Of a stretch of 64,000 bases of DNA, positions 39,493-56,549 are shown piece after piece. The notes beneath the pieces are model-generated. The model ran no database searches. It saw nothing but the letters and a program-made list of their open reading frames with translations, and was not told where the DNA came from. This DNA is from Mycolicibacterium holsaticum DSM 44478 = JCM 12374 (GTDB lineage: Bacteria > Actinomycetota > Actinomycetes > Mycobacteriales > Mycobacteriaceae): contig NZ_CP080998.1 of NCBI RefSeq assembly GCF_019645835.1, positions 2,418,001 through 2,482,000 of the forward strand. Direction: 5' to 3'. Position 1 is the first letter of the stretch, and each line of letters begins with the position of its first letter. The position numbers and the translations under genes were made by a program.

Positions 39493-40605
39493 GTGTCGTC
39501 GAGCGCGGACACCGACGTCGTCGTATTTCTGACCGGCGACGTGATGACCGGTCGCGGCATCGACCAGATCCTGCCGCATCCCGGCGATCCGACGCTGCGC
39601 GAATCCGTCGTATCGGATGCGCGAACGTATGTAGCGCTTGCCGAGCGGACCAACGGTTCGATCCCCGCTCCGGTCGACTTCGCGTGGCCGTGGGGTGATG
39701 CGGTGGCGGTCCTCGACCAGGTCCAACCCGACGTCCGCCTGATCAACCTCGAGACGAGTATCACCACCAGCGGCAAGTTCGCACCCGGCAAGGCCGTTCA
39801 CTACCGGATGCATCCGGACAACATCGGATGCCTGGCCGCGATCCGACCCGATGTCTGCGCGCTGGCGAACAATCACGTCCTCGACTTCGGCCATCGCGGT
39901 CTGGCCGACACGCTGGAGGTGCTCACCCGCGCGGAAATAGGTTGTGCCGGAGTCGGTTCCGATGTCGAGCAGGCCAACGAGCCGGTAAAGGTGCCCGTGG
40001 GGGAGTCCGGGCAGGTGGTGATTGCCTCCGTCGGATCGGTGACGAGCGGCATCCCGGCGCGCTGGGCCGCTACCGGCGACCACCCCGGAGTTGCTCTGCT
40101 GCCCGATCTGTCCGGCCGGACAGCCGACGCCGTCGCCAACCGCATGCTGGCGCAAAAGCACGACGGCGATATCACGATTGCCTCGGTGCACTGGGGTTCA
40201 AACTGGGGTTACGAGGTGGAACTGGCACAGATCCGCTTCGCGCACCGGTTGATCGACGAGGGTGTCGACGTCGTGCACGGCCACTCATCGCATCATCCGC
40301 GTCCCATCGAGGTGTACCGCGGCAAGCTAATCCTCTACGGGTGCGGCGACACCGTCGACGACTACGAGGGCATCGGCAGCTACGATGCGTTTCGCCACGA
40401 GTTGCGCCTGCTGTACTTCGCGTCGATCGACCGCCGAACCGGCCGCCTTACCCGTCTTCGGATGACGCCGATGCGGATGCGGCGGATGCGTCTCGAACAC
40501 GCACCCGACGACGCCGCCGAATGGTTGCGCGGAAGGCTCGAGCATATGAGCCGGCAGTTCGGCACCGCGGTACGCCGCATGGATGCCAACTTTACGGTCG
40601 GCTAG
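39493..40605 (+). CDS. CapA/PgsA-family protein (calcineurin-like fold)
   Basis: 370 aa member of the CapA family (poly-gamma-glutamate capsule accessory proteins, metallophosphatase-like fold). Motifs: FLTGDVMTGRGIDQ, LINLETSITT, VCALANNHVLDFGHRGL, ASVHWGSNWGYEV, VHGHSSHHPRPIEVYRGKLILYGCGD. No signal peptide or anchor, unlike Bacillus CapA. No capB/capC genes nearby, so capsule synthesis is unlikely; similar orphan CapA proteins are widespread in mycobacteria. GTG start at 39493. The stop abuts a truncated SDR remnant. Confidence 0.88.
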   Translation: MSSSADTDVVVFLTGDVMTGRGIDQILPHPGDPTLRESVVSDARTYVALAERTNGSIPAPVDFAWPWGDAVAVLDQVQPDVRLINLETSITTSGKFAPGKAVHYRMHPDNIGCLAAIRPDVCALANNHVLDFGHRGLADTLEVLTRAEIGCAGVGSDVEQANEPVKVPVGESGQVVIASVGSVTSGIPARWAATGDHPGVALLPDLSGRTADAVANRMLAQKHDGDITIASVHWGSNWGYEVELAQIRFAHRLIDEGVDVVHGHSSHHPRPIEVYRGKLILYGCGDTVDDYEGIGSYDAFRHELRLLYFASIDRRTGRLTRLRMTPMRMRRMRLEHAPDDAAEWLRGRLEHMSRQFGTAVRRMDANFTVG

Positions 40606-41907: not shown

Positions 41908-41927
41908 TGGGGTAGTGGATTACCCCA
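41908..41927. promoter_or_regulatory. inverted repeat upstream of the five-gene operon
   Basis: TGGGGTA-GTGGAT-TACCCCA, perfect 7-bp arms, 68 bases before the first ATG of the operon in a 283-base region without genes. Suitable in size and place for a dimeric repressor site; a weak hairpin is the alternative. Confidence 0.45.
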
Positions 41928-41994: not shown

Positions 41995-42477
41995 ATGCGC
42001 GCTCGTTCGCTCACGATCTCCGCAGCCGACGTCGAATCGCGGATTCGACAGCGGCTGATCGGCGTCGGTAACACAGCGCGCCATGTGGTGTGGCAGACCG
42101 GCGACCACGCCGTCCTGCTGCGCAGTGACCGTGTCCGCGCACGCCTGCTCGAGGGCTGGCTCATGGTCTCGATCGAACTCCAGACCGACCAGACAGGACG
42201 GCGTCAGCTCGAACTCGTCTATCGCCTCGGCGCACCCGAGTCGGGGCGCGGCACCGGCGCGGCGGTGAAGATCAACGCCGCGACGCCGCAGGCCCTTGCA
42301 CTGGCCGAGGTGTGGGGTGCAGATCTGCAGCGGGTCGTGTGGGACGCCGTGCTCGACGCGGTCGAGGCAGCGGTCAGCGCGGTGCGACGCAGAGAACCGC
42401 GTCAGCCGTTAGTCCTTCGCGGGTTTCACGCCGGCCGTGAGGGTTTCACGGTCGAGGTCGCAAGTGGGTCGCGCTGA
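41995..42477 (+). CDS. uncharacterised protein, first gene of the five-gene operon
   Basis: 160 aa; not recognised. Starts ATG 41995 with AGGG eight bases upstream. N-terminal helix (SLTISAADVESRIRQRLIGVG), a run of beta-strands (HVVWQTGDHAVLLRSDRVRARLLEGWLMVSIELQT, RQLELVYRLG), a helical middle (ATPQALALAEVWGADLQRVVWDAVLDAVEAAVSAVRRRE) and a final strand pair FHAGREGFTVEVASG. No signal, helix bundle or enzyme motif. The TGA shares its A with the ATG of the next gene, so the two are translationally coupled; a small adaptor or chaperone for the 1660-aa product is one possibility. Confidence 0.75.
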   Translation: MRARSLTISAADVESRIRQRLIGVGNTARHVVWQTGDHAVLLRSDRVRARLLEGWLMVSIELQTDQTGRRQLELVYRLGAPESGRGTGAAVKINAATPQALALAEVWGADLQRVVWDAVLDAVEAAVSAVRRREPRQPLVLRGFHAGREGFTVEVASGSR

Positions 42478-45400
42478 TGGTGAACTTCGATATCGCCCTC
42501 ATCGAGCTCGGCAAGCTGATCGGATTCTTCGACCCGGGCGGTACCGTGCGGTGGGTCTGGTTCGGCAAGCCGATCGAAGAAGCCCTCGAGACGCTCCCCG
42601 CGGAGCGCCAACGGATCGGCTTGATGCTGCAATCCCTGCTGCCCGACCCGGTGCCGGAAGGAGGGGCCTTCGCCGGCACCCAGGACGATCCTGACCACCA
42701 GTGGCAGCCGGTGTTGATGATCGACGCGATCAACGGTGGTTTCGGAGTTACCTGGAGCATGCCGGTCGGGGAGCCCCTCGTGATCGGGATCGGGGCGAAG
42801 GCAAGCGATATCGGTGGCCAGCCGATCGACCTGGCCGTGCTCGCGAAGGTGCTGCGGATCGACGGCGGGTCCGCCGATCACGCGTTCGGCGATGTGGAGT
42901 TCGCGGGCACATTTCCGGTGCCGGACTTTCTCACCTCGGGTGAACTGAACGGCGCCATCAGCGCGACGGCGAATCCGCTCGAGGCGTCGGTCGACCTCAC
43001 CGCCGAGGCGAACATCCTGCCCGCACCGAACGGGCGCACGATGTCGTACGTCTCGGGCCAGTCCTCGCCCGAAATCCTGGGCTGGGATGCCGCGAGGTTG
43101 GCGGTGTTCGTGCTCAAGGCGTTCATCGCGCAGCGCGCCGCTACCGGATCCGAGCCGTTCTTCGAGCGGGTGCTCGAGCACGTGTTCCCGATGCTCGGTG
43201 ACCCACCCGACCCGATCATGCCCTTCCCGATCGTCGACGAAATGGGCGAACCGGTCGACTTCACGATCTGGAGCAACAGTGTTCTGCAGGGCGAGGACGC
43301 GGCCGGCCCGTTGACCTTCCTCTGGCATCTGCGCGCGTTGCTGACCGGCAACGAGGATCCGCAATTCTGGCCGGGATCAATGTTTTTCCCGCTCATCGAC
43401 GGTCCCTTGACCGGTAACCCACCGACGATGGCCGACGCGCTCGACGGCCAACAGTACCCACCCGCGGCTCCCGGAGCGGGCGCGTGGGTGGGCGTGCTGA
43501 CCGATCCGCCCGACGCCTTCACGCTCGTGATCGACCTGTGGAATGCGGCGTCGCAGCGGCACCGCATTCCGATCGCCAAGTGGGACGGTACCAACCTCAT
43601 CCGCCCACCACTTCAGTTGAACCCGCTGGATCTCGTCGGATTTGGGACGAGCGAGGTCATGTTCGCGTCCGGGGAGCTGATCCTCGTCTCACACACCGTG
43701 CCGGACGGTCCGCTGCAGGGCGTCTTCGCGATCGCGCTCGCCCTCGCCCAAAATCAGCCGCCCGCAATCGTGTTGAAGACCCCGGCCGCGTTCCCCGATC
43801 TCGCATTCCCGCCCGATGCGACAGCCCTCGCCGCCGACCTCACGTCGTCGATCGTCATAGTCGCGTCCGAAGGCACCGAGTTCGAGGCGCTGACCACCGC
43901 GCTTTCCAGTGTGGTGAACGACGCGATCCGGGGCCAGACACCCAGCGCCCAGGAGATGCTCGCGACCCTTGTCGCGATCGCGTCAAAAGCCACCGGCGGT
44001 ACAGGCAACGACGTGGTGGTGCCGGTCGACGACGTCGAACTCACCGTCGGTCTCGACGGTGCCGACCATCTCACCGCGGGTGTAGCCTACGGCCCCGTCA
44101 CCTCCGGAGGCGATGATCCCGATCTGGTGATCGGCAAATTCAGCGCCGGGGTCGACATCGTGCTCGGCAGCGACGACCGGGTACTCGACGGATTCCAGGT
44201 CGGTTTCGAGGATATGCGCCTCGGGGACCGCGGATCCGGTGGCGGCATCGTCGCGAGCCTCATCCCCGACATGCGCGAAATGCCCGGGTTCGGACTCCAA
44301 TTGGTCTACTCGGCGTCGTTGGAGCCGCCCGTCACGCTCACCGGCGGCGGAAAGATCCCCATTCAACGCACCTTCGGCCCGCTCGAGATCGCCGCGCTGC
44401 TGGTCGATCTGCGTGAGGAATCCTTCGCGGTCGGGCTGGACCTCGGATTCGAGCTCGGCCCGATCATGGTCGCCGCCTATGAACTCGGCCTGGAGATCCG
44501 TTTCGAGGACGGTGCGGTGACACCGTTCCTGCACGGGCTCGGCCTTGCGATGGACACCGAAACGATTAAGCTCGGCGGCTTCTTCGCGGCCGTCGAGACG
44601 CCGCAGGGGCAGACCGATTACGTCGGCGGTGCCGTCGTCTCCGTCGCAGGCTATTTCGAGCTTTCGGCGATCGGCGGCTACACCCAGTTACCCGACGATG
44701 ACCCCTCGCTGTTCATCTTCGCGTCGCTGGTCGCGCCGCTCGGCGGGCCGCCGTGGTTCTTCATGACGGGCGTCGCCGGCGGCTTCGGCTTCAATCGGGC
44801 GCTGCCCAACCCCGAGCTGATGCTCGACCACCCGTTCCTGAAGGTCATGCGGGGAGAGCTCGCGGTGAGCGGCGACGCCGCGACCTCACTGAAGGAGCTG
44901 AGCCTGCTTTTCGCCCCCGAGGAGGGCCAGTTCTGGATCGCCGCAGGCATCCAGTTCATCTCGTTCGGCTTCATCACCGGCCGCGTCGTCGTCGCAATCG
45001 CGTTCGGCCACAGGTTCTCGTTCACCATCCTGGGGATGGCGTCCTTCAGCCTCGAACCGCTCGCCTATATCGAAATCGGCATCCTCACCACCGTCGACGA
45101 GGAACATTTCGTGCTGCGGGCGTCGTTGTCGCCCAACAGTTACATCCTGCACCCCGACATCTTCAGCCTGCAGGGCGATATCGCATTGTGCGCGTGGTAC
45201 GCACCGCCGCACGACGGTGACTTCCTCTTCAGCATCGGCGGGTACCACCCTGAGTTCAAGAAGCCCGACCACTATCCCGAACTCGTTCGTGTCGGCGCCA
45301 AGGCGACGCTGTACGAGTTCGTCCATCTGTCGGTCGAGGTGTTCTTCGCATGTACGCCGCAGGCGCTGATGGCGGGAGCCAAAGCCGCCCTGTGGGGCGA

Positions 45401-47459
45401 GTTCATGGGTATCGCCGCGGGGTGTGAGGTCTACGTCGACGTGCTCATCACGTGGGATCCGTTCTTCCTGCGCGCGGGCCTCGGGGTGGTGCTGTGGTTC
45501 GAGTTCTTCGGCAGGCACGAGATCGGTGTGCACCTCGACATCTACACACCCGAGTTCGGCGGCACCGCAACGATCGACCTCGCCATCGTCTCGTTCGAGG
45601 TGAGTTTCGGTGCCGAGATCGGTGAGCCGCCCGCACCGCAGATTTCTGAGTTCATGACCAAGCAACTGGCACTGCCCGCCAATGAGCTTCCGCCCGCAAC
45701 CGGGATCCATCCGGCCGGCGCGCGGGTTCCCGCATTCAACACCGCCGATGCCCCCGGCCTGTTGCGCGTCGAATTCCTCAGCGGCAGAGTCGGGACCGCA
45801 GCCGACGAGGAGTCAGAGCAACAGGAGGGCACCGACCAGGCCGCCCCGGTGCGCCTCGGTCCCGAGTGGAGTTTCCTTGTCCGGACCCGTCTTCCGCTGG
45901 ATCCCGACGATGTGCCTGCCGATGGCGCCGCCTTCCCGCCCGTCGTGGCCGGGGACGTCAACCTGCCGTTGTGCCGGCAGCTGGGACTCACCTCACGGCT
46001 CGCGGTCACCTCGCCGGCGCTCGACGATCCCGAGGTGTCCGATGCGATCGGCCGCGCCTGGGTCACTGACTTCCACCCCGCGGCGACGTTCGGCCCTTCG
46101 CTGCTCGACACCGGCCAGACCGGGACTCAGGCCGCGGCGAAACTCGATTCGGCCACGCCGTCGGTTCCCCTCGTCGAGGGCATGTTCGTCGACTGCGGTC
46201 CCGAGGTTCCCACCGCACCTCCACTTTCGGCTTCGCGGTCGGAGAAGTCGCCCAACAGCGAGGCCTACCCGTTGCCGCTGGGCGACGAAGCCCCGGGTCA
46301 ACTCGTCGGCGTGGCCGACCACTTCTTCTTTGCGGCCGCACCACTGCAGGCCACGGCTCCCAGCGGTGGATCCCGCCGGGACTCCGCGTTGACCGCCCTG
46401 CGTGGCCGCACCCGCGCGCCGCTGACCGCACTCCTCAAGAGCGCCGCACTGCTGAACCCGGTAAAGCACTCCGCAGCAGCACAGTTCAGCGTGGCCGCTA
46501 CCGCGGCCGCGGCGATACCGCACATGTCGCCACCGCTGTCGCCCGCGCGGCCGGTCGAACTACAACCAGTGCGCCTCAAGGTGCTGTCGATACGTTCGGA
46601 TCACGCCACCTCCGGTCGCAAGCTGGAAACCGTCACGTCGCCGGCGAAATTTACCGAGCGGCTGCTCACGGGCACCGCGGGCGCGCGGGGGATATTCCGC
46701 GCGGCGATCGAGGTACCCGCCGGGGAAGCACAGCTGCTCGAGTTCGGCGGTGGTGGCGCTGCGGCCGCGGCGCTTCGGATGTCGGGTCATCAGCACGTGC
46801 GGACGGTCGCGTTCGACCGCGCGGGGGGCGTCGTGCTCGACAGACACGCGCGGGGCGCCGGCTCACTGAAACTGCCCGCGAGCACCGCCACGGTCGCTTT
46901 CATCGGATCGGGAAGTGCCGCAGCACCCGCGACGGCCGGCGTAGAACCCGACACGGCACTGCTTGCGGTCAATCCCCGAAGCTTCCTTGCGCCCGGCTGC
47001 GTCGTGACAACACGGACCCCGCTGCACACCGCTGTCCGCGCGCTCGACGGCATGCCTGGCGCCGAGCTCTTCGCCGGTGCGCGCTCGGTGGATGTCTCTT
47101 TCCAGGCCTTGAAGAAGGCCGCGGCTCTCATCATCCGGGTCGTGCCCGTCGTCGAGCGCCCCGGACCCGCTGAGCGTCAGGTGCGTTGGCGTGCGATCGG
47201 GGCGCGATTGCGCGACCTCGTTCCCGTCGTCGGTGCCGACGCGGTGAGCCTCACGATGGCGGTGGCCGCCGACCGGGCCTGGCGACTCGAGATCGACCTC
47301 GGCCCGGAATGGCGGCTCGACGGCATCGCGGTCGTCCCCGGTGGCACCGAGGCGCTGGTCGCTCAACTGCGTCGCGGCGGCGGGCGTGACCTTGTGGACG
47401 ACGCGATAGCACCCCCCAGCGAGCTGGTCACGAAGGTGAACGTGGAGGCGCGAGCATGA
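42477..47459 (+). CDS. giant DUF6603-type protein, core of the uncharacterised operon
   Basis: 1660 aa, no signal peptide, no conventional membrane helix. About residues 590-1060 have the long run of alternating hydrophobic/polar strands and the GGFGFNRALPNPE-type turn (after FFMTGVAG) that I associate with the DUF6603 family: FGPLEIAALLVDLREESFAV, FGLITGR-like FGFITGRVVVAIAFG, LGMASFSLEPLAYIEIGILT, AGLGVVLWFEFFGRHEIGVH. The first 580 residues are mixed alpha/beta with several Trp/Pro-rich segments; residues about 1090-1430 are Pro/Ala/Ser-rich linker-like; the last 220 contain another beta domain (EVPAGEAQLLEFGGGGAAA, VSFQALKKAAALIIRVVPVVE). Function unknown; an extended beta-scaffold is suggested. 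Overlaps the next gene as ATGA. Confidence 0.8.
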   Translation: MVNFDIALIELGKLIGFFDPGGTVRWVWFGKPIEEALETLPAERQRIGLMLQSLLPDPVPEGGAFAGTQDDPDHQWQPVLMIDAINGGFGVTWSMPVGEPLVIGIGAKASDIGGQPIDLAVLAKVLRIDGGSADHAFGDVEFAGTFPVPDFLTSGELNGAISATANPLEASVDLTAEANILPAPNGRTMSYVSGQSSPEILGWDAARLAVFVLKAFIAQRAATGSEPFFERVLEHVFPMLGDPPDPIMPFPIVDEMGEPVDFTIWSNSVLQGEDAAGPLTFLWHLRALLTGNEDPQFWPGSMFFPLIDGPLTGNPPTMADALDGQQYPPAAPGAGAWVGVLTDPPDAFTLVIDLWNAASQRHRIPIAKWDGTNLIRPPLQLNPLDLVGFGTSEVMFASGELILVSHTVPDGPLQGVFAIALALAQNQPPAIVLKTPAAFPDLAFPPDATALAADLTSSIVIVASEGTEFEALTTALSSVVNDAIRGQTPSAQEMLATLVAIASKATGGTGNDVVVPVDDVELTVGLDGADHLTAGVAYGPVTSGGDDPDLVIGKFSAGVDIVLGSDDRVLDGFQVGFEDMRLGDRGSGGGIVASLIPDMREMPGFGLQLVYSASLEPPVTLTGGGKIPIQRTFGPLEIAALLVDLREESFAVGLDLGFELGPIMVAAYELGLEIRFEDGAVTPFLHGLGLAMDTETIKLGGFFAAVETPQGQTDYVGGAVVSVAGYFELSAIGGYTQLPDDDPSLFIFASLVAPLGGPPWFFMTGVAGGFGFNRALPNPELMLDHPFLKVMRGELAVSGDAATSLKELSLLFAPEEGQFWIAAGIQFISFGFITGRVVVAIAFGHRFSFTILGMASFSLEPLAYIEIGILTTVDEEHFVLRASLSPNSYILHPDIFSLQGDIALCAWYAPPHDGDFLFSIGGYHPEFKKPDHYPELVRVGAKATLYEFVHLSVEVFFACTPQALMAGAKAALWGEFMGIAAGCEVYVDVLITWDPFFLRAGLGVVLWFEFFGRHEIGVHLDIYTPEFGGTATIDLAIVSFEVSFGAEIGEPPAPQISEFMTKQLALPANELPPATGIHPAGARVPAFNTADAPGLLRVEFLSGRVGTAADEESEQQEGTDQAAPVRLGPEWSFLVRTRLPLDPDDVPADGAAFPPVVAGDVNLPLCRQLGLTSRLAVTSPALDDPEVSDAIGRAWVTDFHPAATFGPSLLDTGQTGTQAAAKLDSATPSVPLVEGMFVDCGPEVPTAPPLSASRSEKSPNSEAYPLPLGDEAPGQLVGVADHFFFAAAPLQATAPSGGSRRDSALTALRGRTRAPLTALLKSAALLNPVKHSAAAQFSVAATAAAAIPHMSPPLSPARPVELQPVRLKVLSIRSDHATSGRKLETVTSPAKFTERLLTGTAGARGIFRAAIEVPAGEAQLLEFGGGGAAAAALRMSGHQHVRTVAFDRAGGVVLDRHARGAGSLKLPASTATVAFIGSGSAAAPATAGVEPDTALLAVNPRSFLAPGCVVTTRTPLHTAVRALDGMPGAELFAGARSVDVSFQALKKAAALIIRVVPVVERPGPAERQVRWRAIGARLRDLVPVVGADAVSLTMAVAADRAWRLEIDLGPEWRLDGIAVVPGGTEALVAQLRRGGGRDLVDDAIAPPSELVTKVNVEARA

Positions 47460-48997
47460 ACCAGGTCTTCTCGAGGATGATGCCGGTCGCTCGGGCCGGT
47501 GTTCCCGTCACGATCACCCCGATGCAGACGCTTGACCCGAAAGACTCGCAGGCACAGGACAGCTCGCTTCTCGAGCTGACCGGGCCCGACACCATCCACG
47601 TCCAGATCGACGGCCCGCAGGCCTCGTTGACCGCCGACCTCATCGCGGGTGTCTATCCGGCCCCCGGCAGCGAGACCTCACCCGACGAGTTTCTGCCGCA
47701 CATCGCGTTCAACCGGCGCACGCTTCCATGGGAACGCCAAGGGCCCCAGCCCGACCGGGAGGTGCCGTGGCTGGCGCTCCTGGTGTTTTCCGAAGCTGAT
47801 TTTGCGACCGTGACCCCGTCAGTGCGTGGTGGTCCGTTCCGGGGGCAGCCGCAGCAGGCCCCGACCGTCAGCGTCGACAAGTTCGCCGTTGTGGACACGC
47901 CCGAGCCCACCCGGAACCACCTCGTGAACACGCTCGGAATCCCTGGTGATGCACAGGTCAGCACGCTCACCGTGCCCAACAGTGTGTTGCGCAAGGTGAT
48001 GCCCAAGGTCGACGAACTCCCGCTGCTGTGTCACGTCAAACGCAGCGTCGTGGCCGGCGTCGAGACCGACCACGCGATCGTCGTTGCGAACCGGTTGCCC
48101 AACGCCGCGGCGCCGGAGGGGGAGCGGGCGCCCCTGCACCTCGCCGTGCTCGTCTCGGTGGAAAGGTGGGCGCAGCTGTTCCCGGTGGGGCCGCAGCCCC
48201 CGGTCATCACGGGCACCACGACGCTGCTCGTGCTGCACCACTGGACATTCCGACCGTACGCCGGTGGCGACTTCGAGCAGGTTGTCAAGGCGATCCGGTA
48301 CCGGCCCAACGGCGGTGTCCTGCGGTTCGGCAATCTTCCGGCCGACGTCGCCGAGGGCGAGGACGCGCCGCTGTCGGGTGACTTTCAGTCATTGCTCAAC
48401 CCGAGCGGTACCTTCATCACGCCGCTCGAGCACGATCAGGACGTCGGCGCCGCCACCTACCGCGGACCGCTCCGGCCGTTCGGCCCGCAGCCGCGCAGTT
48501 CCGCATTCGCGATCGCCGCCGCGCCAAGCGAATTCGCAGACGCTCCGCAAGGGGCGCCGCTGGAGTATTCGCACGCCGCGGCGTTCGAGCTGGGCCGGCT
48601 GCTCGCGCTGGCCGATCCGGCGATCCTCGAGGACCTGCGTGACATCCGCGCGACCGCCAAGCAACCCGTCGAGCCGCCGGACCTGGTGAACCAGTTGCCC
48701 GATGCCCTCCAGAAGCCCGACTGGGTGCAGAACCCGCAATGGGTCGACGAGCCGTGGCAGGACTTCGGCGGCCAGAGCCTGGTCAAAGACCAGACTCAGT
48801 TCCTCGCGCGGGGTGTGGCCGATCCGAGCGGCCTGGCCGACCATCTCGACAAGTGGAACCTCGGTGACATCGTCTCGACGGTGACCGGCATCGGAGCGGT
48901 GGTGAGCGCACCGGTCACAGCGGTCAATATTGGCTCGATCACCGCCGACCAACTCGCGGTTGAGTTCGCCGACGTCGCCGAAGCGGCGCAGGAGTAG
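47456..48997 (+). CDS. uncharacterised 513-aa protein of the operon
   Basis: 513 aa; not recognised. Soluble, beta-rich first half with distinctive blocks FLPHIAFNRRTLPWERQGP, VPWLALLVFSEADFATV, LPLLCHVKRSVVAG, HAIVVANRLPNAAAPEGERA, LHLAVLVSVERW and TLLVLHHWTFRPYAGGDFEQV; the second half (about residue 350 onward) is more helical with HAAAFELGRLLALADPAILEDLRDIRATA. There is no P-loop, protease, nuclease or glycosidase motif that I can see. It overlaps the giant gene by four bases and is followed four bases later by the 320-aa gene. Confidence 0.75.
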   Translation: MNQVFSRMMPVARAGVPVTITPMQTLDPKDSQAQDSSLLELTGPDTIHVQIDGPQASLTADLIAGVYPAPGSETSPDEFLPHIAFNRRTLPWERQGPQPDREVPWLALLVFSEADFATVTPSVRGGPFRGQPQQAPTVSVDKFAVVDTPEPTRNHLVNTLGIPGDAQVSTLTVPNSVLRKVMPKVDELPLLCHVKRSVVAGVETDHAIVVANRLPNAAAPEGERAPLHLAVLVSVERWAQLFPVGPQPPVITGTTTLLVLHHWTFRPYAGGDFEQVVKAIRYRPNGGVLRFGNLPADVAEGEDAPLSGDFQSLLNPSGTFITPLEHDQDVGAATYRGPLRPFGPQPRSSAFAIAAAPSEFADAPQGAPLEYSHAAAFELGRLLALADPAILEDLRDIRATAKQPVEPPDLVNQLPDALQKPDWVQNPQWVDEPWQDFGGQSLVKDQTQFLARGVADPSGLADHLDKWNLGDIVSTVTGIGAVVSAPVTAVNIGSITADQLAVEFADVAEAAQE

Positions 48998-49001
48998 CGA
49001 T

Positions 49002-49964
49002 ATGGCCCAGAACGAGCATCTGTCACCGAAGACCGGGGTGGAAGCCGTCGTCACGACGGTGGGCGAGTACGCGGTTACCGCGACTACCGATGGCCTCGAA
49101 TTCGCCTCGCCGTCAAGCACTCCCGATTGGTTCATCAACGGAATCAAGATGTCGGCGCGGCTCGTCGAGTTCCTCACAGACATCCGCCTGCTTCGGCGCA
49201 TCCCGCTGAGCTATCTGGTGCCCGACGCCCGGCTGCTGCCGCCCGAGTCGATCCGGTTCTTTCACGTCAACCAGACGTGGGTCGACCGGGTCATCGACGG
49301 TGTCGTGTCCAACACCAATCTCGGCACGGTCGACTTCCACCGTTCGCTGACGGTGCTGCAAGCGATCCGCGAGCAGGTGAACCCGGCCGAGGGTCAGATG
49401 ACCGGCATGCTGATACGTTCCGAACTCGTCCGGCGCTGGCCGAAGATGATTGTCCGGGCATACAGCGTCGCCGACGCCGAAGCGGACTCCGAACAGAACA
49501 TCGTCGAAACCCTGCGCGCCGAGCCGGTCTCGCGCGATGTCTTCATCGCCCTGTTCGACGGCGAGCCCGCGTCGGTGCATCTTCGGGAGCCGTTCGAGGG
49601 GGTCCGGTACGGCGTCGAGTTCGACGACAACCGCCCCGTTGGGCAGGAATACACTGTCGACCGACGGAATCCCGACGGCAGTGAGGCGACCGGCTCGCAC
49701 GTCATCGGCTTCCACGATCAGAACCGCAGAACGATCGATGTCCGCAAACTCAGTGATGACATCGTCCCGGGCTCTGCCGTCGGTGATTCCCGCGCCGTGG
49801 CGTTGCACCTCGAGCAGCGCCCCTATATCCAGGTGTTTCGGCAGCCGTCCGCCGAAAGCGGGGGATCCAAACCGGCTCCACCAGAGGGGCTTCTGCTGCG
49901 CAACGGCCACCGGGTGAACCTGAAGTTCGCCGAGCATGCGCTCTTCCGAACCGAACCCGACTGA
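49002..49964 (+). CDS. uncharacterised 320-aa protein of the operon
   Basis: 320 aa; not recognised. ATG 49002 is preceded by GGAG at 48991-48994. N-terminal region AVVTTVGEYAVTATTDGLEF then an amphipathic block DWFINGIKMSARLVEFLTDIRLLRRIPLSYLVPDARLLPPE; centre with IRFFHVNQTWVDRVIDGVVSNTNLG and SLTVLQAIREQVNP; later beta strands MIVRAYSVADAEAD, RDVFIALFDGEPASVHLREPFEG, and a C-terminal NLKFAEHALF. The DARLLPPESIRFFHVNQTW segment hints at a protein-protein docking surface. No catalytic motif or membrane segment. Confidence 0.75.
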   Translation: MAQNEHLSPKTGVEAVVTTVGEYAVTATTDGLEFASPSSTPDWFINGIKMSARLVEFLTDIRLLRRIPLSYLVPDARLLPPESIRFFHVNQTWVDRVIDGVVSNTNLGTVDFHRSLTVLQAIREQVNPAEGQMTGMLIRSELVRRWPKMIVRAYSVADAEADSEQNIVETLRAEPVSRDVFIALFDGEPASVHLREPFEGVRYGVEFDDNRPVGQEYTVDRRNPDGSEATGSHVIGFHDQNRRTIDVRKLSDDIVPGSAVGDSRAVALHLEQRPYIQVFRQPSAESGGSKPAPPEGLLLRNGHRVNLKFAEHALFRTEPD

Positions 49965-49973
49965 GGAGCCACG

Positions 49974-52900
49974 ATGCCCAAGCGGACAAAGACCGTGCCG
50001 ATCGATGTCGCCGCCCGCGTGGTCGGCGCGGCGACGACCGTTCCGCTGCTCAGCGACCCGCCGTTCACCGCCACCGGTGTGCTCGAACGCGGCATCCACC
50101 TGCACTGGGCGCTTCCGGATGCACTGGCCAAAGCCGACGCCCAGAAGTCACGCCCGCCCAGGTTCCGCGGGGTCCCCGATCTGTGGCTCGTCGTGCGCTT
50201 CAACCCGGTCAGCGGCAATGCGGCGCGCACGCATCGGGAATGGATCGTCGACTCGGTCGCCGAGGCGGTGACGCCGCTGGCCGAGTGGCAACCGCCGGCG
50301 GGCCGGGCCGCCGACCGCATCCACACCGCACCCGGTGTGCTGGCCCGCGTCGCACCCGGCTGGGGCGAGTGGGCCCTCGACGAACCGTTCGACCAACTCA
50401 CCACCGCGTACTACCCGAGTTGCCGCAGGCGCCTGGGGTTTCACGACGATCTGGCCGATCTCGGCTCGACGCCGTCCGGGACGGTGAGCTACGCGGTCGT
50501 CGGCTGGTACTCGTCCACATCGTTCGACCCGTTCTACCGCACGCTGCTGCGGCGCCTCGACAAGCTCGGGCACCGCGCCGATCTGAAAAGCTTCACCGAG
50601 TTCGCGGTGCCGGTGGCCAACGGGGCGGTCGTTGCGGAACCGTCGTGGAACCCGCAGCTCAGCGTCAAGGACATGCCGCCACCACCGGCGGCCGAGACGA
50701 CGATGCTGCTCGCCGACGCCGACTTCACCGATGAGCTGCTGCGGAGCAGCGTGACCGCGACGCGGACGCTTGCGGATGCGTTCCAATCCAACGGAGGCAC
50801 AGCACAACACGTCGTGGTCGACGCGCTCATGCCCGCGGCTCACCAAGCCCACACGGTGCTGCACGGCTCGATCGTCGGCGTGCCGGTCCGGCAGACAAGG
50901 TTGATCGGCTTTTCGTCGCTCAAGACGGACGGGGTTGCCCTCTATCCAAACCTGCAGCGGGCCATGGCGGACGTCGCTGCGCGTACCGGGGCCGACACGG
51001 AGGTGGACTACCTCGACATGATGCTGGGCAAGCTCGGACAGCAGTCGGGTACGGTAGGCGGGGTCATCGATCTGCCCGGCGCACAACATGCGCGCACTTT
51101 CCAGGGGGTGCCCGGCCGCTCGACATGGTTTGCGCGGCTGGACATCTATCCGAAGCTCAACCTGCAGAACCTCGGGTTCACCCTCGCCGATCTCGGTGGT
51201 TCGGCCGCCGTGCCGGTGATGGGAAACTGGTTGGACCTGATCGCGAGGTCGGCCGCGATCGCAGCCCCGACCGCGGATCAGCTGCAGAGCCAGATCCCCG
51301 ACGCCGTCCTCAGCGAGCCCCCGCAGGCACAACCCTCCGGGCCCAGCGACGGCGAAATCATCGAGTGGATCGGCGATCTGCGCGCCGCGTTCGCCACCGC
51401 ACAGCACGAGTCAACGCATCCGATCGACCCCAGGCTCGTGCGTGTACAGGACCATCGCCGCAACGCCGCGCCGAGCATGCTGGGACCCTCGGCCGACGGC
51501 TCGGGTCCCGCACAGGCGGGCTGGTGGCTCGACCTCGGAGATCCGAATGCCCCAATCGACCTCGCGCAGAACCGCATTCACCGTGTACTCGCGGAGCTGT
51601 ACCGTTCGATCGCCGGCGCCCGGGTGCACCTCCCGGACACCGGGCACCTCTTTGAGGTCCCCGGCCCGCGGTGGTACCGGCCGTGGGCGCCGCACCTCGT
51701 GCTCTACGGCGCCAAGCGGCAGTTCCGCCACGGAGCCGACGGACGGTTCCGGCTCGACGGCCACCTCGACACACGGTTCGCCGGCGAGCTGATGGTCGGT
51801 CTGCGCGTCGGCGGCCACACCGTGCTCGGCAGCGAATTACTCGCTGACACCGCCGCGTTCAGAGTCTCCGGACTGCCGGATACGGTATCCGGCCTCGTCG
51901 CGGAGCACGCGCTGACCGACGCGGCGAACGCGCCGATCATGACGCGCGTCGCGCACCGGACCGGTGACGGCGGCCAGAAGCCCACCGCGGCTCAACTGAC
52001 CGCGGCCGCACGCTCGATCTGGCTCAACCGCGGCGGTCTACTCGACGACGAGCAGGCCGAGGCGATCGCCGCGATCGAGCCCATCGGAACGCCATCGAGC
52101 GCGGTTGGGCTGCAGGCGTGGCGTGACTGGTACGGTCCGCTCTTCCTCGACACCGAAGCCACCCACCGGCGCAAGCGGTTCAACGACGCGTGGGCACTGC
52201 CGCCGGAGCATGTCGAGACGGTCGACCGGGACCCGGTCGTCGCGCCGGACCGCGAGCAGGTCGTGACCGAGCGGCATGTCGCCACCGTGACCGTCGCCAA
52301 CGTGTTGCGCGAGACTCTGGTCACCGAAGCCGTCAACGGTCCCGACGGAAACCCGATGCCGAAAAAGCCTGCGCCCAACGGGGTGGACGCCGGCACATTC
52401 GACGCACTTGATGTGGTGTCGGCGTCGCTGACCGGCCTTGACGATGCACTCGCCGCCGAGGGGCAGCGCGAGCAGGGCGGGTTTCTGCACATGAACCGCA
52501 TCCGCGTCTACGACACGTTCGGGGCATCTGCGGGCTGGTCGAGCGCCAGCACAACGCTGGACCCGTTGCCGGAGTGGGCGACGGCGATGCCCGCTCGGCT
52601 CACCACTTGGGGGCGGCTGAATCTGCGGTTGCAGTCGGCCGCGGACCTCGATGTCGAGGCCACGCCGTTCGACTCACCGATCTGTGGATTTCTGTTGCCG
52701 GACTTCGTGGATCAAGCACTCGAGGTCTACGACGCCGACGGTCAACCGGTCGGCCAACTCACCGCGACCGACCCGATCGACGGAGATCTGGGCCCGGTCG
52801 ACGCCACGACGCTCACGGTCGACTTCACGCCGTTGCCATGGGTCACCGTGCCCGACGGAGAACCGACGACCGCCGCGATCACGAACGCGACCCTGCGCCG

Positions 52901-53750
52901 GTTCGTCGAGGCGGTGGTAGCGCAATCACTCACCGTGGCAGCCGGTGCGCCCGGATGGCACGAAACCGGCTTCACCGCAATGCTTCGCGTGTTCGACACG
53001 GTCCGTTCGACGCTCGAGCCCACCGTCAAGCATGCCGACGGTTGTGTGCGGCTGCTCGGGGATCCCGTGGTCGTGCTTCGCGCAAGAGCAGCATTCGAGG
53101 CGTCCGACGCGACGGTCACGCAGCTACGAGAGGGACCGCCGACGATCACCGATGCATCTTCGCTGCCGGTGCTGCGGGTAAGGATCGGTGATGTGACGCG
53201 GCCTGAGGACGGTGTGCTGGGGTGCTTCCTGGATGCTGCGACACCGGCCGACGCACGGTTCGCGCCGCCGACACTGGAGGCGGCTGAGAAGGCGGTGCTC
53301 AACCAGATGGTGACGAGCGCGGGGCTTCAGAAGACGCGCGCGATCACCCACCCGTTCGTGGCTGGGCAGGTCTCGGAGTTCGACGTTCCAGCGAACCAGC
53401 CGCTCGACCTCGTCGTGCTCGCTGATACCCGGGGCAGCATCTACGCCACCTGCGGGGTGCTCCCGCGCAAGAACATCGTGATGCCAAAGGACTTCATCGA
53501 GCCGGCCCTTGCCCGACTACGGCCGACCTTCCGGGTGGGGCCGATCCTGGGATTCGAGCGCGATGAGAAGGTCGTGCCCGTGATGCCGGCGCCGTTCATC
53601 GAGGGGTTGCGTGCGACGTTCGTACACGACGACGACGCGACCTTCCCGGAGGTGCCGATTCCACCCGTGCTGGGTGTGGGGGAGTTGCCACCCGCGCGGG
53701 CGCGGCTGACCGAGGGCTGGGCACGCATGGTGCCTCAGGAGCCGGGATAA
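49974..53750 (+). CDS. uncharacterised 1258-aa protein, last gene of the operon
   Basis: 1258 aa; not recognised. ATG 49974 follows GAGGAGCC. The N-terminus has a distinctive ATGVLERGIHLHWALPDALA then RGVPDLWLVVRFNPV. Middle parts alternate beta-rich and helical sections (MTRVAHRTGDGG and a long LTAAARSIWLNRGGLLDDEQAEAIAAIE segment), and there is a late beta domain ending IYATCGVLPRKNIVMPKDF and FIEGLRATFVHDDDATFPE. No signal peptide, no transmembrane helix, no common enzyme signature. Length and the repeated small sheet-like blocks suggest a large structural or adhesive protein. Stops eleven bases before an amine oxidase fragment on the other strand. Confidence 0.75.
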   Translation: MPKRTKTVPIDVAARVVGAATTVPLLSDPPFTATGVLERGIHLHWALPDALAKADAQKSRPPRFRGVPDLWLVVRFNPVSGNAARTHREWIVDSVAEAVTPLAEWQPPAGRAADRIHTAPGVLARVAPGWGEWALDEPFDQLTTAYYPSCRRRLGFHDDLADLGSTPSGTVSYAVVGWYSSTSFDPFYRTLLRRLDKLGHRADLKSFTEFAVPVANGAVVAEPSWNPQLSVKDMPPPPAAETTMLLADADFTDELLRSSVTATRTLADAFQSNGGTAQHVVVDALMPAAHQAHTVLHGSIVGVPVRQTRLIGFSSLKTDGVALYPNLQRAMADVAARTGADTEVDYLDMMLGKLGQQSGTVGGVIDLPGAQHARTFQGVPGRSTWFARLDIYPKLNLQNLGFTLADLGGSAAVPVMGNWLDLIARSAAIAAPTADQLQSQIPDAVLSEPPQAQPSGPSDGEIIEWIGDLRAAFATAQHESTHPIDPRLVRVQDHRRNAAPSMLGPSADGSGPAQAGWWLDLGDPNAPIDLAQNRIHRVLAELYRSIAGARVHLPDTGHLFEVPGPRWYRPWAPHLVLYGAKRQFRHGADGRFRLDGHLDTRFAGELMVGLRVGGHTVLGSELLADTAAFRVSGLPDTVSGLVAEHALTDAANAPIMTRVAHRTGDGGQKPTAAQLTAAARSIWLNRGGLLDDEQAEAIAAIEPIGTPSSAVGLQAWRDWYGPLFLDTEATHRRKRFNDAWALPPEHVETVDRDPVVAPDREQVVTERHVATVTVANVLRETLVTEAVNGPDGNPMPKKPAPNGVDAGTFDALDVVSASLTGLDDALAAEGQREQGGFLHMNRIRVYDTFGASAGWSSASTTLDPLPEWATAMPARLTTWGRLNLRLQSAADLDVEATPFDSPICGFLLPDFVDQALEVYDADGQPVGQLTATDPIDGDLGPVDATTLTVDFTPLPWVTVPDGEPTTAAITNATLRRFVEAVVAQSLTVAAGAPGWHETGFTAMLRVFDTVRSTLEPTVKHADGCVRLLGDPVVVLRARAAFEASDATVTQLREGPPTITDASSLPVLRVRIGDVTRPEDGVLGCFLDAATPADARFAPPTLEAAEKAVLNQMVTSAGLQKTRAITHPFVAGQVSEFDVPANQPLDLVVLADTRGSIYATCGVLPRKNIVMPKDFIEPALARLRPTFRVGPILGFERDEKVVPVMPAPFIEGLRATFVHDDDATFPEVPIPPVLGVGELPPARARLTEGWARMVPQEPG

Positions 53751-53760
53751 ACCGCGGGTT

Positions 53761-54068
53761 TCACAGCGCGGGGAGTACGTTGGCTGCGGCGCGTTCGCCC
53801 GAGGACACCGCGCCGTCCATGTAGCCCATGGACTCCACTGCGGTTTCCGCGCGCGGATGCGCTTGTGGTTGGGCCCGATCCATTGATCGCCGACTTCGAC
53901 CACCGCGTCGCCGAAAGCAGCGCCGAGGCGGTGGTTCAGCGTGCGCCCGCCGACACGGTCGCGGGCTTCCAACACAGCGACGTCCACGCCGGCGCGACGC
54001 AGAATTCGGGCGGCGGTCAATCCTGCCAGGCCGGCCCCGATCACCGCGACGTCCGTGTCGATGTGCAT
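53761..54068 (-). pseudogene. flavin monoamine oxidase reduced to its two ends
   Basis: From ATG 54068 (behind GGGAGGCAGG) the frame gives MHIDTDVAVIGAGLAGLTAA, RILRRAGVDVAVLEARDRVG and GRTLNHRLGAAFGDAVVEVG: the N-terminal FAD site of a flavin monoamine oxidase. After about 68 residues, near 53860, the sequence jumps, in another frame, to TAVESMGYMDGAVSSGERAA then ANVLPAL and a stop at 53761, the characteristic C-terminus of the same enzyme. About 350 residues between are missing. The product cannot be functional. It lies between the unknown operon and an alpha/beta hydrolase. Confidence 0.88.
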
Positions 54069-54088
54069 CCTGCCTCCCACGGGGGAGT

Positions 54089-55534: not shown

Positions 55535-56128
55535 CTAGCGGCGATCCGGCGGGTTGGGCCAGCACGTGGTGAGCGCCGCCGGGGTCCACTGCGGCCAGCG
55601 GAGGGAGCCCACGACGAAGCCGCCGGCCATCTGCGCAACGATACGGGGTCCCCGGATGCCGCTGTTGTCGTAAAAGGTCGCTGAGTCCGCCCGAGCAGCC
55701 GCGAGGGCGACCAGTGCCCACAGCCGTTGGTAGCGTTCCCGAATCTTGGCTTCCGGCACGGAATGTCCGCCCGCGGCGACTCGGTGTTGCACCCTGGCCA
55801 CGGCGAGCTGCTCGGGGATGAGAACCGCGTGCACAACCACCGAGTACCCCCGCAGGTGTGCGCTGTAGAGGAGCTCGAGCTTGGAAGGGTGGGAGAACAC
55901 GGTCTCGGCGATGAAGGATTCGCCGAGTTCGATCAGGCGTTCTCTGGTGGCGGCTGCGATCCGTGCGGCTTCATAGGCGTGTGAGGCGGGGTCATCTGGC
56001 CAGCGCTGCTTGGCGATCTCGTCGGCGTTGACCACCACGCTGCCAGGCAGCAGGGGCGCCAAGGTCAGCTCGATGAAGGTGGACTTGCCGGCACCGTTGG
56101 GGCCGACGACGAGGTCGAGCCGCTTCAC
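55535..56128 (-). CDS. zeta-type toxin (P-loop kinase) of a toxin-antitoxin pair
   Basis: 197 aa. Walker A GPNGAGKSTFIE at the very N-terminus, then ETVFSHPSKLELLYSAHLRGYSVVVHAVLI and ERYQRLWAL, as in zeta toxins that phosphorylate UDP-N-acetylamino-sugars. The layout (zeta-like protein behind a 129-aa partner) matches M. tuberculosis Rv0366c/Rv0367c, including lengths as I recall them. GTG start at 56128, 31 bases after the antitoxin stop. Complete and apparently active. Confidence 0.88.
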   Translation of the reverse strand: MKRLDLVVGPNGAGKSTFIELTLAPLLPGSVVVNADEIAKQRWPDDPASHAYEAARIAAATRERLIELGESFIAETVFSHPSKLELLYSAHLRGYSVVVHAVLIPEQLAVARVQHRVAAGGHSVPEAKIRERYQRLWALVALAAARADSATFYDNSGIRGPRIVAQMAGGFVVGSLRWPQWTPAALTTCWPNPPDRR

Positions 56129-56159
56129 CAGATGATGTCAGCCTCGTACGGTGCGGGTC

Positions 56160-56549
56160 TCACCGCTGGTCTGACAGCGTCGACGAGGTCCCATCGGGGC
56201 GGTACTGGACCAGCTCGCCGTCGTCGTTGAGTGCGACGGTGGTGATACCGCGGCCGGCCAACGTCGCGCCGTAGTCGGTGTCGGCCAGTCTCTCTTGGAT
56301 CGCGGCGGAGATCTCAGCGTTGAACACCACACCTTCCTCGGCGCTCAGCTCGCTCAGCGGAGTTGCGCCGCTCAGCGCGGCCTCCACCTTGCGTCGGGCC
56401 GCACTGTGCTGTCCTGATACCGCGCGACCCACTCGTGCCCAATGATCGAGCTGCTGTTTGGCTGAGCGACTCTGCCGCGCGCCCTCGGCCGCGGCGCTAT
56501 CGAGCAGATCCGCGGCAAACCGCGTGACCCGATCTGCCGTCTCAGTCAT
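56160..56549 (-). CDS. antitoxin of the zeta-type pair
   Basis: 129 aa, Rv0367c-like. An N-terminal helical segment with ADRVTRFAADLLDSAAAEGA then RQSRSAKQQLDHWARVGRAV suggests a ParD-type ribbon-helix-helix or helical DNA-binding part; the C-terminal half (VVFNAEISAAIQERLADTDYG then LNDDGELVQYRPDG) likely covers the toxin. Excellent ribosome site AGGAGG seven bases before ATG 56549. Placed first in the operon, as needed to keep antitoxin in excess, and preceded by overlapping palindromes (56568-56599). Confidence 0.88.
   Translation of the reverse strand: MTETADRVTRFAADLLDSAAAEGARQSRSAKQQLDHWARVGRAVSGQHSAARRKVEAALSGATPLSELSAEEGVVFNAEISAAIQERLADTDYGATLAGRGITTVALNDDGELVQYRPDGTSSTLSDQR

Follow-up and report, generated by a model that had tools for sequence, protein, structure and literature searches.

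Tc and other polymorphic toxin systems combine giant beta-rich core proteins with one exchangeable enzymatic part and with variable binding parts. Extracellular contractile injection systems are scattered across taxa in a manner broadly similar to that of the module described here. Passages of one report (PMC12799240) describe MBL nucleases as effectors that are common to unrelated defence systems, and the effectors as modular. The Pfam entry for PF20248 (DUF6603) is that of a domain of unknown function, and this domain is present at full strength in g2, the second gene of a five-gene operon in the DNA analysed here (the window, 64,000 nucleotides of the Mycolicibacterium holsaticum chromosome). 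Neither DUF6603, PF20248 nor the module to which this operon belongs is mentioned in the open-access literature searched, which excludes preprints and outside which a description may exist. The module, consisting of the DUF6603 giant, g3 with g4, and g5, is undescribed in that literature.

The operon and its surroundings

Five open ORFs, each with an ATG start, lie on the + strand of the window, in a genome that is a single contig of 5.62 Mb. The first, g1 (41995-42477, 160 aa), occupies the place of the variable, putative effector gene of many relatives; g2 (42477-47459, 1660 aa) is the DUF6603 giant; g3 (47456-48997, 513 aa) and g4 (49002-49964, 320 aa) correspond to the N- and C-terminal parts, respectively, of one protein of ~580-980 aa in most relatives; and g5 (49974-53750, 1258 aa) is the third core component, with no known domain. 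For g4 the mechanical ORF begins with TTG at 48930; the length of 320 aa results when the ATG at 49002 is taken as the start. All five genes are co-directional, with junctions of -1, -4, +4 and +9 bases, in agreement with an earlier sequence-only reading that had taken them for one operon, and their GC content is 0.77-0.85 at codon position 3 against 0.43-0.52 at position 2, a bias strong enough for g1-g5 to look like real genes.

That reading had also called g2 a DUF6603-type giant, and the match to PF20248 bears this out (residues 629-1069, encoded at 44361-45683 on the + strand; E 3.1e-100, 336.6 bits against a curated cut-off of 27). In the same Pfam scan of all five proteins, g1, g3, g4 and g5 had zero matches. 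None of the five matched NCBIfam or, at E 0.01, any family of PADLOC (library of 2023), and PHROGs returned two insignificant matches alone (E 0.17 and 0.4), so that, DUF6603 being of unknown function, the earlier statement that the five genes have no characterised homologue holds for these four collections. The sequences of g2 and g5 had no significant relative in the PDB; profiles of the DUF6603 core and of g3/g4 likewise found none there, and a g5 profile gave two insignificant matches (E 0.2 and 0.46). On a crude hydropathy test, which is not a predictor, no 19-residue Kyte-Doolittle peak exceeded 1.85 in g1-g5, consistent with the claim that they contain no membrane helix, and by similarly crude hydropathy none has a strongly hydrophobic start.

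The ten flanking genes scanned are mostly ordinary metabolic genes, two of them being a toxin-antitoxin pair, namely a Zeta-toxin-like kinase and a ParD-like antitoxin (window 55535-56549, - strand). A PGA_cap (capsule synthesis) protein is encoded two genes upstream of the operon (39493-40605, + strand), and a perfect 7-pair inverted repeat, TGGGGTA/TACCCCA, is located at 41908-41927, 67 bases 5' of g1, where it is a possible operator. Abutting the downstream border of g5 is what appears by eye to be the remnant of a flavin amine-oxidase-like gene (53755-54070, - strand), in which the N-terminal nucleotide-binding start stands near the apparent C-terminal end, the middle having gone. Among 36 sampled genomes of the same genus, with at most eight candidates scored per genome, none had a match to the g2 protein; the operon is rare within its genus.

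A conserved module in many phyla

Relatives of the operon were studied in the window together with 101 fetched loci, searched with iterative profiles. The 101 loci comprise 13 genome neighbourhoods, eight plasmid regions and 80 of the 251 relatives in genome_contigs; some organisms are represented twice, and near-copies occur among the loci. Retrieval was by way of DUF6603, which is the reason for its presence in 102 of 102 loci. Locus genes were called as greedy longest ORFs, a procedure that can err in GC-rich DNA and by which some ORFs overrun the true start. Across the 102 loci, g3 was detected in 100, g4 in 84 and g5 in 80. A tree divides the set into 92 type A loci, including the window, and 10 type B loci; within type A the corresponding counts are 90, 84 and 80. 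In many of the loci where a gene was missed, the contig is short or the fetched stretch comes to an end. Wherever they were found, the ORFs of g3, g4 and g5 were on the strand of the DUF6603 gene (266 of 266 in the 102 loci), and in the window all core parts are adjacent as well as co-directional. This clustering of g2-g5 relatives in ~80 other loci indicates that the operon is more than a chance arrangement.

In 69 loci g3 and g4 share one ORF and in 15, including the window, they are separate, the split in L032 being doubtful since its ORFs may overrun the true start. Judged from these ORFs, g3 and g4 are the two halves of a protein that most relatives have fused. The sequence-only reading had proposed a multi-subunit structure; the multi-gene system stands, with the refinement that two of its five genes are such halves. 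The position of g5 is less constant: in the 80 loci that have it, it lies after the DUF6603 gene in 49 and before it in 30, with one locus showing both arrangements.

A measure of co-occurrence that is independent of selection by DUF6603 came from 396 genomes of the window's phylum, in which two or three candidates were scored per genome for g5 and for g3/g4 (the three counts probably refer to the same 396 genomes). DUF6603 was found in 12, g5 in four and g3/g4 in five. All genomes with g5 or g3/g4 fall among the 12 with DUF6603, and the matches sit at the DUF6603 locus; the four with g5 are exactly the four with a type A DUF6603, the remaining eight being type B, among them G165, which gave a weak g3 match (E 9.2e-6). 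The proposal that the genes form one multi-gene system that travels together across distant genomes is thus supported both by the type A counts and by the finding of DUF6603 in four of four g5 genomes.

Hosts of type A loci belong to the Actinomycetota, Cyanobacteriota, Bacteroidota, Chloroflexota, Bacillota, Pseudomonadota, Acidobacteriota, Balneolota and candidate groups, with one Methanoculleus MAG; those of type B include a haloarchaeal plasmid and Paraburkholderia. As a genetic unit, the core, comprising the DUF6603 giant, g3/g4 and g5, is conserved across many phyla. On the DUF6603 tree the phyla are mixed with one another, as horizontal transfer would lead one to expect. The DUF6603 core of G050, a genome of the same order as that of the window, is 97-98% identical to those of Micromonospora loci. 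We rejected a phage origin of the core, since g2 had no relatives in viral contigs or in the phage collection and a g3/g4 relative used as query had no match in the latter.

The type B loci (L018, L020-L025, L029, L036 and L037) have a second gene that resembles g3 (hhalign probability 96.5). A third gene (c4, 1300-2300 aa, some copies cut) was seen in six of them and is annotated in Salinigranum as a BGTF surface protein; kinship of g5 with this third gene was rejected on an hhalign probability of 0.0. Variation was also apparent in the length of the giant, which reaches ~3200 aa in L019, L065, L067, L080 and L085, with ~2100 residues N-terminal to the core; in L019 the first part of the giant is similar to its counterpart in the Bacteroidota group (hhalign 95.1). 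On a plasmid of Paenibacillus sonchi (L129) the g5 match is spread over two hypothetical genes, covering the end of one of them, with no DUF6603 gene listed upstream, and the module there looks like a decayed one.

The copy in the window is divergent. Its DUF6603 core stands alone on a long isolated branch of a quick tree whose long branches leave this placement unsure. The arms of g2, N-terminal (1-620) and C-terminal (1076-1660), have no relative among the fetched loci, in which the single recognisable relative of g1 is a 243-aa protein at the same position in L019. Our own profiles for fibre-like and MBL genes, described below, found none within 35001-60000 of the window. The function of the window copy may therefore have shifted.

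A variable gene upstream of DUF6603

An accepted same-strand gene lies 5' of the DUF6603 gene in 54 of the 92 type A loci. These slot genes were picked by hand, and in some of the 38 loci omitted the upstream ORF is short or lies far off; a short upstream ORF alone is present in the window, in L019 and in several Lachnospiraceae. In 47 of the 54 the distance from the end of the slot gene to the DUF6603 ORF is between -50 and +100 bases; in the other seven it falls outside this range. At a Pfam threshold of E 0.001, the 54 proteins yielded 20 matches to Lactamase_B, three to Lactamase_B_2, two each to subtilase and EEP nuclease, and one each to trypsin, class 3 lipase, glutaminase and DUF4135; proteins outside those families, scanned singly, gave no match or weak matches. 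With our own profile 27 slot proteins were assigned to the MBL fold, and an HxDxDH or HxHxDH motif is kept in all 27. The slot genes with a known domain have thereby been shown to encode predicted enzymes of kinds that serve as effectors. In one MBL slot protein (L071), whose true start is unsure, the MBL domain is preceded by a Lys/Arg-rich segment that by eye looks like a nuclear-localisation signal but may be of no significance. In the window the slot is filled by g1, which has no known Pfam domain.

Genes appear to have been swapped at this position. By sequence, the 62 upstream proteins (54 of type A and eight of type B) form 29 clusters, some of which, the three EEP-like ones for example, are distantly related to one another and are counted apart. 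Unrelated slot genes accompany DUF6603 cores that are 87% (L062/L070) and 89% (L083/L072) identical. When slot genes were compared in ten close pairs of loci, seven pairs were without a hit at E 1, two had hits that were insignificant, and one, L074/L071, had a match that extends over 115 residues outside the MBL part (E 2e-10). Placed on the tree, 20 assigned states, of which 15 occur once, need 26 changes where the least possible is 19, with the slot of L063 scored as EEP by eye; scored as MBL against the rest, 15 changes are needed. On these comparisons the slot shows the pattern of exchangeable effectors. By crude hydropathy nearly all of 49 slot proteins have cytosolic-looking starts; that of L056 has a hydrophobic, signal-peptide-like start, as perhaps has that of L112, and some slot genes therefore need not belong to the module.

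An alternative is intracellular anti-phage defence, in which the core would sense infection and a modular effector (MBL nuclease, protease or lipase) would kill or arrest the cell, as in Avs1, Lamassu and Hachiman. We consider this the strongest rival explanation, if an unlikely one. In PADLOC the MBL slot protein of L110 most resembles effectors of intracellular defence systems, matching LmuA (E 2e-22), an RT-associated MBL (1.1e-20) and Avs1a (9.8e-11), and the L109 subtilase has a weak match (8.6e-4), the other three of the five slot proteins scanned having none. Passages of the report cited above describe pairs of MBL nuclease and trypsin as taken up by unrelated defence systems, and pools of effectors as interchangeable (PMC12799240). 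In favour of defence, too, the gap between the slot gene and DUF6603 has no room for a further gene in 47 of the 54 loci, which leaves no immunity gene on that side, and the module is distributed sporadically, its phyla being mixed together on the tree. Against it, the Pfam scan of g1-g5 revealed no ATPase, STAND, cyclase, NTPase or other sensor domain, PADLOC matched none of the five, and the lectin, S74 chaperone, tail-collar and Kelch parts of adjoining proteins suit an outward-facing fibre.

Fibre-like proteins beside the module

Next to g5 there is often a variable protein of fibre-like type that contains lectin, S74, tail-collar, Kelch or hemopexin-like parts. The first single-linkage cluster of flank proteins spans 54 loci. 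From such clusters 58 proteins were picked by hand, fragments being omitted, and shared repeats may chain unrelated proteins within them; among the 58, the domains seen include Laminin_G_3 (19), Peptidase_S74 (eight), Kelch (six), Collar (five), Hemopexin (three) and PLAT, F5/8 type C and Gp10_C (one each). A subgroup that shares its middle part was matched in 33 loci, in some of them partially. S74 and collar parts are typical of the tail fibres and spikes of phages.

The tail-collar, Gp10_C and S74 parts bring to mind a contractile injection system, whether intact or in relic form; the sequence-only reading had suggested an assembly related to contractile particles. Plasmid p-YT9A (L128) has two baseplate-V genes and a DUF4280 gene ~9-14 kb upstream of its module, and sheath families occur elsewhere in five of eight DUF6603-bearing genomes, a count that may reflect the base rate in their kin. 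A PF04984 sheath is, however, absent from the genome of the window (0 matches) and from G316 and G343, in a search in which three of 14 control genomes were positive; neither Pfam nor PHROGs assigned a tail family to any of g1-g5; and g2 and g3/g4 were unmatched in the phage collection, and g2 in viral contigs, the locus neighbours having been scanned in part. We accordingly set the contractile proposal aside as very improbable. The stretch of p-YT9A concerned (13611-19623 of L128) holds a GH-E nuclease gene together with the two baseplate-V genes and the DUF4280 gene, all upstream of the DUF6603 module.

Predicted structures

A predicted model of a fused g3/g4 relative (mean pLDDT 88.2, pTM 0.75) contains Ig-like sandwiches and had no clear structural match. 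The AlphaFold model of 1196 residues of a DUF6603 relative (mean pLDDT 82.7, pTM 0.58) is a very long antiparallel beta-meander. It matches porins, ushers, LptD and ApoB, with an rmsd of ~12-16 A in most rows of the second comparison and larger values in the Foldseek rows; in this model the matches appear to reflect strand order, and the meander could be a closed shell, a pore or an open belt. DUF6603 relatives have a strong amphipathic strand pattern (z 11 against within-strand shuffles), which says little on membranes because the Ig-like strands of g3/g4 show a similar face contrast (2.1 against 2.6).

Giant beta-rich proteins, Ig-like sandwiches in g3/g4 and flank proteins of lectin type are also what would be seen in a structural or surface assembly, such as a coat, a sheath, an adhesive or an S-layer-like scaffold, whose nearby enzymes would be processing factors or unrelated genes and not cargo. 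A BGTF surface protein follows the haloarchaeal type B locus, and the 38 type A loci without an accepted enzyme gene, the window among them, are consistent with such an assembly. Processing factors are not expected, however, to swap among unrelated families at 87-89% core identity, and the crude test revealed no strongly hydrophobic start in g1-g5. We regard an assembly of this type as improbable.

Proposed function

The explanation that we find to fit best is that the module is a polymorphic effector-bearing and probably target-binding (delivery) complex, because exchangeable enzymes at a fixed place are combined with variable binding proteins; we would put its probability a little short of even. 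In our working hypothesis the core proteins assemble into a large beta-rich complex of which the slot enzyme would be the cargo, the fibre would select the target surface, and the DUF6603 meander might house the cargo or form a passage for it. The interchangeable enzymes and fibre-like binders of the relatives suggest a weapon or delivery complex and not a storage particle, as had been considered earlier and in favour of which nothing was found. Of the scaffold also proposed there, the single multi-gene system is retained, whereas the same enzymes and binders point to conflict or delivery and not to a passive role.

For the window operon, we lean, with not quite even confidence, towards a divergent, core-only copy of this undescribed multi-protein conflict system. 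Here g1 and the unmatched arms of g2 may replace cargo and target binding, or distant genes of the genome may serve. Assigning a function to the window by kinship is a stretch, since it has no recognisable effector or fibre gene and its DUF6603 lies on a long isolated branch. A broader proposal, which is possible and which we hold with some doubt, is that the module represents a new class of non-contractile multi-protein effector-delivery complex, moving horizontally among many bacterial phyla and some archaea, in which the DUF6603 giant and its two partners would bring exchangeable enzymes to other cells, variable fibres of lectin and tail type providing the aim; the window would then be a deep divergent branch with altered cargo and aiming parts.

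If the delivery explanation is right, scattered 'hypothetical' giants of streptomycetes, cyanobacteria, Bacteroidota, Chloroflexota, clostridia and some archaea belong to one system with exchangeable cargo, and microbes have a new means to hit neighbours, hosts or phages. The module would also be a source of uncharacterised enzymes, given how many slot proteins fall outside the known families. Should delivery prove the wrong reading, the definition of the module still unites scattered unknowns as one testable system.

Comparison with known systems

Systems such as Lamassu, Avs1, Hachiman and DRT with MBL nuclease effectors have in common with the module a related MBL-fold slot protein, found in a relative, and the modularity of their effectors, yet the core proteins of the module match no PADLOC model and no NTPase or sensor domain was seen in them. 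The likeness to extracellular contractile injection systems lies in the fibre-like proteins of relatives with their tail parts, whereas the genome of the window has no sheath and its five proteins no tail family. Tc and other polymorphic toxins follow a logic like that proposed for the module. No Tc or Rhs Pfam domain is present in g1-g5, in which Pfam yields DUF6603 alone, and the putative effectors of the module are separate upstream genes, in contrast to the C-terminal tips of polymorphic toxins. The present analysis supplements the Pfam entry for PF20248 with the proteins that accompany DUF6603, the slot with its changing genes and the fibre-like proteins nearby.
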